DNA of 39,438 bases from a virus. This document shows, piece after piece, positions 6,245-9,922 of the stretch (position 1 is the first letter of the stretch; each line of letters opens with the position of its first letter). Where the stretch lies: IMG/VR virus record IMGVR_UViG_3300027513_000032, positions 1-39,438 of that record; one strand, given 5' to 3'. Made by a program: the position numbers and the translations under genes. The notes under the pieces were generated by a model that saw only the letters and a list, made by a program, of their open reading frames with translations, had not been told where the DNA came from and did not search any database.

Positions 6245-7683
6245 TGGTTGATATCACCTACACCGCGCCCAAAACCGTAGCCGACTTCATGGTGTCGGAA
6301 GCGTTCATCCGGCTGATCGCTGGACCAGTGGGTTCGGGAAAAACAACAGGTGTGATTTTCGAATTACTGCGAAGGAGTTGCGAACAATGGCCGTCGGCCG
6401 ATGGCATACGCTATACGCGGTGGGCGATCTGCCGCCAGACCCTCAGCCAGTTGAAGAACACGGTGCTGAAGGACATCGCGAGGTGGTTTTCTGGGATCGC
6501 GCGCTGGAAAGTCAGCGACAGCACGATCTACTTCGAATTCGCGGATGTGAAAACCGAGTGGTTGCTGTTACCCCTCGAAACGCCTGAAGACCAGCGACGG
6601 CTTCTCTCGATGAACCTGACGGGCATTTGGGTGTCGGAAGGTATCGAGATCGACTACGACCTGATAGGCCCCATTTCGGCCCGCTGTGGTCGTTATCCGT
6701 CGCCAGCGGACGGGGGTGCCAAATGGTACGGCATAACGATAGACACGAACATGCCCAGCGAGGGGACACCCTGGCAGATTGCCATGTCCGATCCGCCCCC
6801 CGACATGCAGGTATTTATCCAACCGTCTGGCCTCGCTGAGGATGCTGAGAACCTACCGTACCTTCTTCAGACGCCCGAAACGCTTAAACTTCCGGTCGAC
6901 GACCCCCGAAGGATAGCGGCCGGGAGGGTTTATTACGAGCGGCTCGCCCGGAACCAGAACGACGCCTGGGTCCAACGGTACGTCAGGGCAGAGTACGGAC
7001 CAGATCCATCCGGGGCCGCCGTGTATGCCGGGGTATTCCGGCCTTCTTTCCATTGCGTGGAAAACCTGGAACCACTCCGGGGACAGCCGCTTTTCGTCGG
7101 ACAGGACTTTGGCCGTGATCCGTGGGGTGTAATCCTCCAGATGGATCATCGCGGGAAGATACTCGTCCTCGAAGAAGTACCGGCTGAAGATACCGGGCTG
7201 ATTAACCATTGTCGGACAACCCTGCGCCCTAGATTGCTTCAGCCGCGCTACCAAGGCCTGAGCGTCGTAGTAGTCGGAGATCCGGCAGGCAACCAGCGGT
7301 CCCAGTACGACGAACAGACAGCCTTCGACATCCTGAAACGTGAGGGCTTCACCGCACAGCCGTGCTTCACCAACGACATCGACACTCGGCTCAGGGCCGT
7401 CGAGGGGTATCTCCTCCAGCAACGCGATGGAGGTCCAGCGATAATCTTTGACCGTGTACGCTGCCCAAAGCTCATCCAGGCGTGTAACGGGATGTACAGG
7501 TATTCGAAGACGTCCCTCGACGTCTCGAAACCCAAGCCTGACAAGAACCCATGGTCCCACGTTTCCGACGCCCTCCAGTACGCGGTGTTGGCCACTGGAG
7601 GGGGAACATACGCCGCCATCGCCCGCAAGCTCTACCCCAAACGTCGCGCTGCGCCGCCTATAAGCGCAGCCGCGTGGACGTGA
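6244..7683 (+). CDS. Large terminase subunit (packaging ATPase-nuclease)
   Basis: 479 residues. The N-terminal ATPase has Walker A GPVGSGKT at 27-34 and a Walker B-like GIWVSEGIE with the catalytic Glu. The C-terminal RNase H-like nuclease has three acidic positions: D288 (GQDFGRD), D346 (VVGDPAGN) and D442 (HVSDALQY). The length matches the family. It powers DNA translocation through the portal and cuts genome ends. The gene follows the small terminase with a one-base overlap and converges tail to tail with the minus-strand operon at 7685. Confidence 0.95.
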   Translation: MVDITYTAPKTVADFMVSEAFIRLIAGPVGSGKTTGVIFELLRRSCEQWPSADGIRYTRWAICRQTLSQLKNTVLKDIARWFSGIARWKVSDSTIYFEFADVKTEWLLLPLETPEDQRRLLSMNLTGIWVSEGIEIDYDLIGPISARCGRYPSPADGGAKWYGITIDTNMPSEGTPWQIAMSDPPPDMQVFIQPSGLAEDAENLPYLLQTPETLKLPVDDPRRIAAGRVYYERLARNQNDAWVQRYVRAEYGPDPSGAAVYAGVFRPSFHCVENLEPLRGQPLFVGQDFGRDPWGVILQMDHRGKILVLEEVPAEDTGLINHCRTTLRPRLLQPRYQGLSVVVVGDPAGNQRSQYDEQTAFDILKREGFTAQPCFTNDIDTRLRAVEGYLLQQRDGGPAIIFDRVRCPKLIQACNGMYRYSKTSLDVSKPKPDKNPWSHVSDALQYAVLATGGGTYAAIARKLYPKRRAAPPISAAAWT

Positions 7684-7938: not shown

Positions 7939-8073
7939 TCAGGGCTTATTTACGGTGTAGGGCTGGGCCCCTTTCGAGAAATACTCGTAGACCTGGCCGC
8001 CCCAGATCACCAGCAGCGTGAAGATCACGGCGACGCAGAACACCAGGATGAGCGCGCCCCCACTACGCATCAT
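7939..8073 (-). CDS. Small single-pass membrane protein
   Basis: 44 residues. It starts at ATG 8073, overlapping the TGA of the gene before it (ATGA); a second in-frame ATG follows directly. One transmembrane segment is clear (ALILVFCVAVIFTLLVIW), followed by a short polar C-terminus (GQVYEYFSKGAQPYTVNKP). The overlap and the uninterrupted frame support a real gene despite its size. Small membrane proteins of this kind in phages are sometimes holins or exclusion factors, but nothing here distinguishes these. Confidence 0.6.
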   Translation of the reverse strand: MMRSGGALILVFCVAVIFTLLVIWGGQVYEYFSKGAQPYTVNKP

Positions 8074-8321
8074 TTGGTAATATGTTTCGTTGCCCACATG
8101 ACGGCTTCTTCCATCTTGGTCTTGGCGATGGATAGCTCCCGGCTCGGTTCAAGGTGCTTGCTCATGTAGAGGACGAAGTCGAGGCCGCAGTCCTTGAACC
8201 ATTTCATGTGGGTTTTCTCGGCCTCGGTCAGCACCCGGTACTCGTGGCGCATGACGTTGTTGGTCACGCGCTGATCGGACGTCGACGGCACGAACTCGGG
8301 GTTGGTATCGGGGGGTTTCAT
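8070..8321 (-). CDS. acb2-like: Putative Acb2/Tad1-like anti-CBASS cyclic-oligonucleotide sponge
   Basis: 83 residues starting at ATG 8321 in an ATGA overlap with the Ig-domain gene. After a short variable N-terminus comes RHEYRVLTEAEKTHMKWFKD, then a second helix with SRELSIAKTKMEEAVMWATK and HIT at the end. This two-helix arrangement (YR-L-EE-...-K-G, then SREL-A-TK-EEAVMWA-KHIT) matches my knowledge of the Acb2/Tad1 hairpin family. Members of that family form small oligomers that sequester cyclic di- and trinucleotide signals of CBASS or the Thoeris-type signal, blocking host defence. The assignment is by motif recognition; no structure or binding test is available. A longer in-frame start at 8390 is less likely. 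Confidence 0.65.
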   Translation of the reverse strand: MKPPDTNPEFVPSTSDQRVTNNVMRHEYRVLTEAEKTHMKWFKDCGLDFVLYMSKHLEPSRELSIAKTKMEEAVMWATKHITK

Positions 8322-8737
8322 GTGACCACTATCGCGTTGGACGTTACCGGGGCGCTCGTACCGCTGATGTTGGTCGCCGTCATGACGCACGTCGCGGTTT
8401 TACCCACGTCGCCCGCCACGCGGGTGTAAGTCGCTGCGTTGGTGCCGACGTTCGCGCCGTCGATCTTCCACTGGTAGGTGCGCGAGTTGGGCGAGCCGTA
8501 CCAGTTGCCCAAGGTCGAGGTCAGCACCGTGCCGGTCTGGTAGATCAGCGGCGCGTCGATCACGGTCGGCGGCGCGATCTCGTCGGCAATGCCCTGCATG
8601 TCGGCCTGGAAGATCTGGACCATTTCTTCCTGGATCTCGGGCGGTGTGCGGGTCAGCACGTAATCACGCGCCGCAACGCGCGCACCGGGCTTAAGCTGGT
8701 CATACAGGCTCTGGGCCCACTGGACGTCCGTCGTCAT
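8318..8737 (-). CDS. Ig-like domain protein with small N-terminal helical domain
   Basis: 139 residues in two parts. Residues 1-45 are helical and carry LYDQLKPGARVAARDYVLTR followed by TPPEIQEEM. Residues about 58-139 form a bacterial Ig-like beta-sandwich (GNWYGSPNSRTYQWKIDG ... VGKTATCVMTATNISG ... SNAIVV). Phage Ig domains usually decorate virions and bind surface glycans weakly. The N-terminal part is paralogous to the 77-residue protein at 37274-37507. The start overlaps the upstream gene by 38 nt. GGAGG lies too close to the ATG to be its ribosome-binding site, but an AGGAG a little further upstream fits. Confidence 0.7.
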   Translation of the reverse strand: MTTDVQWAQSLYDQLKPGARVAARDYVLTRTPPEIQEEMVQIFQADMQGIADEIAPPTVIDAPLIYQTGTVLTSTLGNWYGSPNSRTYQWKIDGANVGTNAATYTRVAGDVGKTATCVMTATNISGTSAPVTSNAIVVT

Positions 8738-9029
8738 CCTCCATCTCCTTGAGCTTGAGCTTCAACGAGGCGATCTCGTCCTCCAGCAGCTTAACATAGG
8801 CCGACGCCCAATACAGTCGCGTGATGGTGCCCTCGCGCTTGGCGGTCATCTCGACCCCCGTCTTCAAACCAAGGATCTGGCTGAACATTTCCAGCCATTC
8901 AGCGTGGTTCATCTTCCGTAGCTGTTCCTCCGGGAGATCGCGGATCTTCAGCTTCAGGTGTGGGCTGACGTAAGTGTTCAGGGGGCGGGGCGGTAATTTC
9001 CCCATTCCGTTCACCGTGTTGTCGTTCAT
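8700..9029 (-). CDS. Phage protein of unknown function
   Basis: 109 residues. The first part carries LNTYVSPHLKLKIRDLPEEQ and a MNHAEWLEMFSQIL helix; the second is a coiled coil (YVKLLEDEIASLKLKLKEME). The start overlaps the stop of the preceding gene, and its 3' end overlaps the Ig-domain gene by 38 nt. I do not recognise it. The coiled coil suggests an oligomer. Confidence 0.6.
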   Translation of the reverse strand: MNDNTVNGMGKLPPRPLNTYVSPHLKLKIRDLPEEQLRKMNHAEWLEMFSQILGLKTGVEMTAKREGTITRLYWASAYVKLLEDEIASLKLKLKEMEDDDGRPVGPEPV

Positions 9030-9520
9030 CGGGTGTTGAAACTCCCGCCCATGACGTCATTGTAACTGAAATTCTCGAGAATTTCACTGACGGCTATCTT
9101 GGGATCGTCGTAACCATACACAGTATCGTTGTAGGTCCACACGAACTTGGGCAAACGAACCAAGTTCGTGGCCCAGCGGTTACCCAGATCGGTAATCCGC
9201 CACATGCCCGAGAACTTTTTATCTTCCTCGGGGTTGGGCTCAGAACGCTCGCACATTTTCCACCACCGCATGGTGGGAAGTTGGTTGGATGCTACCAGCC
9301 AGCGGGGCCCGAACTTGGGTACATCAACCCAGTCGCCACCCGGCTGGGTCATGCGGGCCAGCCAGATGATCGAGGCGGCCATGGTTTTGTTAATTCCCCG
9401 CCGGTACATCTTTCCCCAGCGGTTACAGCACGGACAATGCCCGCCATCATCACGAATAGTCTGCTCCCACTGGGCGCGGGCCTCATCCAGGGTCATGTTT
9501 GAGCCGGTGTGCAAGCTCAT
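9026..9520 (-). CDS. Conserved phage protein with zinc-binding CxxC
   Basis: 164 residues. Near residue 30 is HCPCCNRWGKMYRRGINKTM, a CxCC zinc-binding type cluster followed by a basic helix. The rest is aromatic (WWKMCERSEPNPEEDKKFSG, then WRITDLGNRWA) in the style of a winged-helix or zinc-ribbon phage family I have seen without a function. ATG 9520 has GAGGA 8 nt upstream; ATG 9496 lacks one. It overlaps both neighbours, so it is translationally linked to the operon. Confidence 0.65.
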   Translation of the reverse strand: MSLHTGSNMTLDEARAQWEQTIRDDGGHCPCCNRWGKMYRRGINKTMAASIIWLARMTQPGGDWVDVPKFGPRWLVASNQLPTMRWWKMCERSEPNPEEDKKFSGMWRITDLGNRWATNLVRLPKFVWTYNDTVYGYDDPKIAVSEILENFSYNDVMGGSFNTR

Positions 9521-9698
9521 GGGTGTTTTCCTCGTGAATGGTGTCCAACGCCACCAGTAATATCTGCTCGTGCGTCCAAGCGTGGACCGGGAGATTTCGT
9601 ACGCCGTGTTTCGTAGCGGCGCTCAAGCTTAATCTGAGGGCCTCGGAAAAGATAGCGTACTTGGGCCAGAAATCGGGATCGTTGGGGTTACTCATCAC
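9483..9698 (-). CDS. Small protein of unknown function
   Basis: 71 residues starting MMSNPNDPDFWPKYAIFSEA, mostly helical, with a His/Glu-rich C-terminus (DTIHEENTHELAHRLKHDPG). The sequence contains HExxH-like spacing only by chance arrangement (HELAH), which could bind a metal but lacks the rest of a protease fold at this length. It begins in an ATGA overlap with the gene upstream. Function unknown. Confidence 0.55.
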   Translation of the reverse strand: MMSNPNDPDFWPKYAIFSEALRLSLSAATKHGVRNLPVHAWTHEQILLVALDTIHEENTHELAHRLKHDPG

Positions 9699-9922
9699 CC
9701 CAAAAACAACACCAGTCTGGCTATGTCAACGTCCGACGGCGGAGTTTCGACCGTATCGAGCGGTATCGCCAGCGGTGCGCCGTCGGTTTTACGCCACACC
9801 CGGATCACCCAGTACTCGTACTCGGCGGTGTACGACAGTTCTATATGACCGACCTGGGCCCGCGATTGACTGCTCAAACGGTTTTCCACGCTTCGGATCA
9901 TCATAAGTGGTGAGTTACTCAT
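9695..9922 (-). CDS. First gene of minus-strand small-gene operon
   Basis: 75 residues (MSNSPLMMIRSVENRLSSQS ... YEYWVIRVWRKTDGAPLAIP ...), a beta-rich small protein I do not recognise. Its ATG lies inside an asymmetric relative of the 16-bp palindrome (minus strand TAACTCGGATGAGTAA, 9930-9915), so start codon and motif coincide as in the plus-strand genes. It is the leading gene of the 9.9-7.7 kb operon and diverges from the gene at 10157. Confidence 0.55.
   Translation of the reverse strand: MSNSPLMMIRSVENRLSSQSRAQVGHIELSYTAEYEYWVIRVWRKTDGAPLAIPLDTVETPPSDVDIARLVLFLG

Follow-up and report, generated by a model that had tools for sequence, protein, structure and literature searches.

The question raised by this locus is whether a small minus-strand ORF in a viral genome encodes a protein that captures signal nucleotides of the host, and whether the genes around it share such a role. 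Both had been proposed in a first-pass annotation. The window, meaning the whole stretch of DNA analysed, is a viral record of IMG/VR in its entirety (39,438 bases). Genes of the major head, portal, terminase, DNA polymerase and primase/helicase-like types are present. The terminase large subunit shares 51% identity with its counterpart in Rhizobium phage RHph_TM3_14A, and the hosts of the phage are probably soil Alphaproteobacteria. The terminase gene lies on the plus strand and ends at 7683, and the next plus-strand genes begin near 10.15 kb. Between them is a minus-strand cassette, from 9922 to 7939, of seven small overlapping ORFs. The 83-aa ORF is the sixth of these. In the direction of reading, the features are:

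9695..9922, minus strand: 75-aa ORF, the first of the cassette; no family match.
9483..9695, minus strand: 70-aa ORF, with an ATG start within a listed 71-aa GTG ORF; no family match.
9026..9520, minus strand: 164-aa protein of phrog_2693 (function not known; E 1.9e-26).
8700..9029, minus strand: 109-aa protein; no family match below E 0.1.
8318..8737, minus strand: 139-aa protein with a C-terminal Ig-like domain of virion or appendage type (phrog_26223, E 4.5e-9); upstream neighbour of the sponge gene, with an ATGA overlap.
8070..8321 (stop included), minus strand: predicted Acb2-like sponge gene, 83 aa, from Pfam, a PDB profile search, AlphaFold2/Foldseek and alignment with PaP2 p26 and T4 Vs.4.
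7939..8073, minus strand: 44-aa single-pass membrane protein, whose ATG overlaps the sponge stop; no family match under E 0.01.
7885-7685: a further 66-aa ORF, beyond the seven.

Elsewhere in the window, the near-palindrome TTACCCANTGGGTAA occurs in 25 copies with up to three mismatches, against 0.87 expected. Of these copies, 23 lie within 10.15-21.65 kb, on the early plus-strand side, and none lies before 10,150; some span the ATG of a gene. Promoter and terminator scans of the window gave results near chance level.

The 83-aa ORF is a genuine gene. It is found where the first-pass annotation had placed it, with its ATG at 8321 and the last base of its TGA at 8070, and it contains the two motifs that had been pointed out, YRVLTEAEK and SRELSIAKTKMEEAVMWATKHITK. 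A GTG at 8390 opens a longer reading frame. Nevertheless, the ATG is favoured, because it overlaps the upstream stop and because the three nearest relatives start at the same alignment column. Junctions of the ATGA or TGATG type occur in the cassette at 9695, 9029, 8321 and 8073. The match to Pfam PF24729 (Acb2_Tad1_hairpin; E 6.2e-14) and the at least 516 related IMG/VR loci place the ORF far from a chance reading frame.

This Pfam match also bears on the family, which had been named from the two motifs. It covers residues 28-83 and, at 52.4 bits, exceeds the curated cut-off (27). All 29 members of an alignment of relatives (A1) match PF24729 and no other Pfam family. A1 consists of the window protein, three phage records and 25 of the 36 IMG/VR loci from a first scan. 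Left out were near-duplicates (L018, L019, L024, L028 and L031), L013, and loci with broken, cut or divergent frames (L034-L037 and L040). Several rows start at a guessed codon, and the N-terminus of A1 is thus less certain than the helices. In pairwise BLASTP the window protein does not match PaP2 p26, and in phmmer against the PDB a weak Vs.4 match at E 0.075 stands among chance matches, as does Acb2 homolog 43 at E 0.3. The matter was settled by searching all PDB chains with the A1 profile. The top four matches are all Acb2 (9ptq, 8ixz, 8h2j and 7uq2; E 4e-4 to 1e-3), that is, Acb2 homolog 43 (9ptq), two p26/Acb2 sequences and T4 Vs.4. Tad1 sequences come next, at E ~0.02, and the first unrelated match is at 0.12. 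Together with the fold and the aligned ligand residues, this search backs the assignment to the Acb2/Tad1 hairpin family. The 83-aa protein is a clear but ordinary addition to that known family, whose tested members take up the signal molecules that infected bacteria produce.

Matches in PHROGs were to phrog_1454 (5e-7) and phrog_717 (2e-5), neither of known function. The profile of phrog_717 has 289 positions and a C-terminal hairpin-like stretch (positions 253-282) that was aligned to window 8073-8321; a hairpin domain may thus form the end of longer phage proteins. At two other loci (L075, 5992-6717; L090, 5992-6681), an in-frame fusion joins the hairpin domain to a membrane-like C-terminal segment of ~150 aa; for this segment, no Pfam or PHROG family passed the thresholds applied.

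The fold was modelled with AlphaFold2 as a single chain from 26 sequences. In the model, helices span residues 17-20, 33-56 and 61-82, with no strand; the two long helices, 33-56 and 61-82, are predicted to run antiparallel. The pLDDT is 97-98 across residues 31-80 and about 50-63 before residue 31. In a Foldseek search of the PDB, the first six places go to Acb2 chains, at probability 0.91-0.99, and the next five (ranks 7-11) to CbTad1, with weak E-values (0.2-0.3, from 0.2 upwards, none below 0.001). VIA-align gives Z 7.1 for T4 Vs.4 (rmsd 2.9 over 62 residues), where unrelated hairpins score as high (top 7.9), and Z 6.8 for Acb2 (rmsd 2.1 over 60 residues, 27% identity), where unrelated hairpins tie. 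Given these weak E-values and tied Z-scores, the fold is consistent with the assignment yet not decisive, and it is the sequence that decides the family.

Conservation is also seen in the residues expected to contact the ligand. In a ten-row alignment (A3) of the window protein, its relatives, PaP2 p26, T4 Vs.4, Vibrio D75 and HK639, the sole invariant positions are Y28, K43 and T68. Counted from the translations, these correspond to Y11, K26 and T74 of PaP2 and to Y8, K23 and T68 of T4. We take Y11 and K26 of PaP2 to be cyclic-dinucleotide ligand residues, and R67 to belong presumably to the cyclic-trinucleotide site. R67 is the equivalent of R61 in the window protein, is absent from T4 and is present in nine of the ten A3 rows; R61 and T68 are both invariant in A1 and A2. 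With a motif that leaves free the column 15 residues past Y28, and that fitted 106 of 128 scanned loci, that column is K in 106/106. Thus, the alignment would place the cyclic-dinucleotide pocket residues of Acb2 on the invariant Y28 and K43, and those of its cyclic-trinucleotide site on R61 and T68.

Published mutants concern the same positions. According to PMC12657230 and PMC12657218, the Y8A mutant of T4 Acb2 is deficient in binding and has lost the ability to trigger Panoptes, and T68M lowers affinity. F82 of T4 Acb2 is described as stacking on cyclic dinucleotides. A C-terminal tail with such an aromatic near the ligand is absent from the window protein, which ends at K83 and has T82 in the F82 column. 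PaP2 p26, an Acb2 solved with cGAMP bound, shows A in this column but has a tail ending in F; a feature of the F82 type may therefore not be defining.

With family, fold and residue conservation established, the 83-aa protein is predicted, and very probably so, to be a hairpin-family (Acb2/Tad1) sponge with which the phage takes up cyclic oligonucleotides; the binding itself, the hexamer, the ligand, the defence target and the time of expression are what we infer. By analogy with Acb2, the antiparallel helices 33-56 and 61-82 would assemble into a hexamer. Y28 and K43 are predicted to line pockets for cyclic dinucleotides, and R61 and T68, from the second helix, to line pockets for cyclic trinucleotides at the trimer interfaces. 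Such a sponge would hold the second messengers of the host without cutting them, and their capture would keep the effectors of CBASS, or of a related system, off during infection. Points against this proposal are the lack of the tail, T82 in place of F82, and an N-terminal extension and a short loop that are unlike those of characterised Acb2.

Some of these differences could also mean that the sponge serves another signal. Helix 2 is nearer to Tad1 than to PaP2 Acb2 (CRENAMAITKLEEALMW in SBSphiJ7 Tad1 versus SRELSIAKTKMEEAVMW), and the pocket may differ, since there is no Acb2 tail and the N-terminal extension is conserved. The protein might then be a hairpin-family sponge for the cyclic ADP-ribose of Thoeris, the oligoadenylate of type III CRISPR or another nucleotide, instead of an anti-CBASS one. 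This is unlikely, however, as the N-terminal beta-domain of Tad1 is missing and the first helix, in which Y28 and K43 are retained, resembles that of Acb2.

For the entire operon around the sponge gene (7.7-9.9 kb), the first-pass annotation suggested a possible counter-defence island. The neighbours are indeed small, overlapping and on the same strand, and most are without a family. The statement that all are unassigned holds nearly, the exceptions being the 164-aa protein, with its phrog_2693 match, and the 139-aa protein, which matches Ig-like and tail profiles (in addition to phrog_26223, phrog_1407 major tail protein at 1.9e-7). Matches of the 139-aa protein occur in 159 phage records, including pectin-lyase-fold and carbohydrate-esterase genes, and those of the 164-aa protein in 228, of which 221 are from Mycobacterium phages. 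In IMG/VR searches, neither the 164-aa nor the 109-aa protein had any relative, although an ORF resembling the latter by eye lies upstream of the sponge gene in one relative (L041). An ORF similar to the 44-aa membrane protein is also found 3′ of the sponge gene in another (L007).

None of this makes the island probable. Neither Pfam nor NCBIfam nor PADLOC gives a useful match for any neighbour; of the eight cassette proteins, none matches NCBIfam and 0/8 match PADLOC, which is weak evidence because PADLOC covers defence and not anti-defence genes. The adjacent Ig-like gene is of virion type. In RHph_TM3_14A, the syntenic place directly after the terminase gene holds other small genes on the minus strand as well as one for a 704-aa protein that matches phrog_26223; four other genes scanned there gave no matches. 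A counter-defence island is consequently an improbable reading. Instead, from the Ig-like neighbour, the lack of defence-model matches and the 704-aa protein of RHph_TM3_14A, the cassette seems to be a variable region, late or on the appendage side, into which a sponge gene has come.

The sponge gene itself is found in diverse settings. Relatives in IMG/VR numbered 36 in the first scan and at least 516 loci, among 599 candidate stretches, with the use of an alignment. Of 31 loci in bacterial genomes, 26 are from Alphaproteobacteria, going by the names in the record titles. The homologue of Sinorhizobium phage Aussie lies between head-tail adaptor and stopper genes, PaP2 p26 has a capsid gene beside it, and a portal gene lies beside the Vibrio homologue. 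The homologue of HK639 adjoins spanin genes, and that of the Manatee Spring podovirus is upstream of exonuclease and RecT genes. Downstream genes differ between the IMG/VR loci. Among 100 greedily picked ORFs flanking 18 of the 31 genome loci, some of them surely spurious, the commonest family is terminase, with 4. Such diversity is as expected of an accessory gene. The Aussie, PaP2 and Vibrio locations, and the Ig-like virion-type gene next to the sponge gene in the window, could suggest that the hairpin serves assembly, in a small protein of the virion or of morphogenesis, and has no sponge role, but this is very improbable, as PaP2 p26 has such a location too and is a solved cGAMP-bound Acb2 (8h2j), contexts vary with no neighbour family in more than 4/100 flanking ORFs, and the ligand residues are invariant.

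Two individual loci are recorded here as well. In the close relative L007 (4988-5874), the sponge gene is directly preceded, on the opposite strand, by an endolysin gene and small membrane ORFs. The record named Dunaliella viridis virus SI2 (L002, 17428-17658) has a homologue with 54% identity and is classed in Caudoviricetes (tailed phages); its algal host label is therefore doubtful.

In the preprint PMC11722364, Acb2 is called relatively rare and confined to specific phage groups. The tested sponges of the Acb2/Tad1 family come, in the papers covered (PMC12043709, PMC12657218, PMC12657230, PMC11722364 and PMC13348362), from phages of Pseudomonas, E. coli and Bacillus and from a Clostridium prophage. 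A literature search for Acb2 with Alphaproteobacteria returned one paper, unrelated to judge by its title and opening lines. If the relatives described here bind, the Acb2-like family would be far commoner than PMC11722364 states, and cyclic-nucleotide defence would probably press on phages of rhizobia and their kin. The short form would then be a simple scaffold for studying what sets ligand choice.

Compared with known systems, the window protein has the two-helix protomer of Acb2 (PaP2 p26 and T4 Vs.4; PDB 8H2J, 8H2X and 7UQ2) and shares with PaP2 Acb2 the first-helix pattern YR.L..EE..xM..xKD/E. It differs in three respects: the group of the window protein has a longer conserved N-terminus, SxSDxRTVNNVMRHEY, in which R25 and H26 are invariant in A1 and N21 and N22 nearly so; the loop between the helices is much shorter than in tested Acb2, at about four residues; and the C-terminal QPxxF/Y tail of Acb2 is lacking. 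Acb2 homolog 43 (PDB 9PTQ), whose chain of 76 residues carries REKSVFKTKLEEA in its second helix, is the best profile match (E 4.3e-4) and, although aligned over the helices only, appears to be a similar short form.

The second helix resembles that of Tad1 (SBSphiJ7 Tad1 and CbTad1; PDB 7UAV and 8KBF), with REN..A.T..EEALMW in Tad1 and REL..A.TK.EEAVMW in the window protein. By these motifs, helix 1 is Acb2-like and helix 2 Tad1-like. By contrast, the N-terminal antiparallel beta-sheet domain of Tad1 (in SBSphiJ7 Tad1, whose gene encodes 142 aa, the N-terminal part is long) and its C-terminal tail are both missing. Without the beta-domain the architecture is of the Acb2 type, and the part of the first-pass annotation that extended the ligands to gcADPR thus gains no specific support, even though the family itself stands. 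It is conceivable, if somewhat doubtful, that the relatives form a large, mainly alphaproteobacterial subfamily bridging Acb2 and Tad1, in which the NNVMRHEY extension would cap the pocket in place of the missing C-terminal tail and the range of ligands would be unlike that of the tested sponges.
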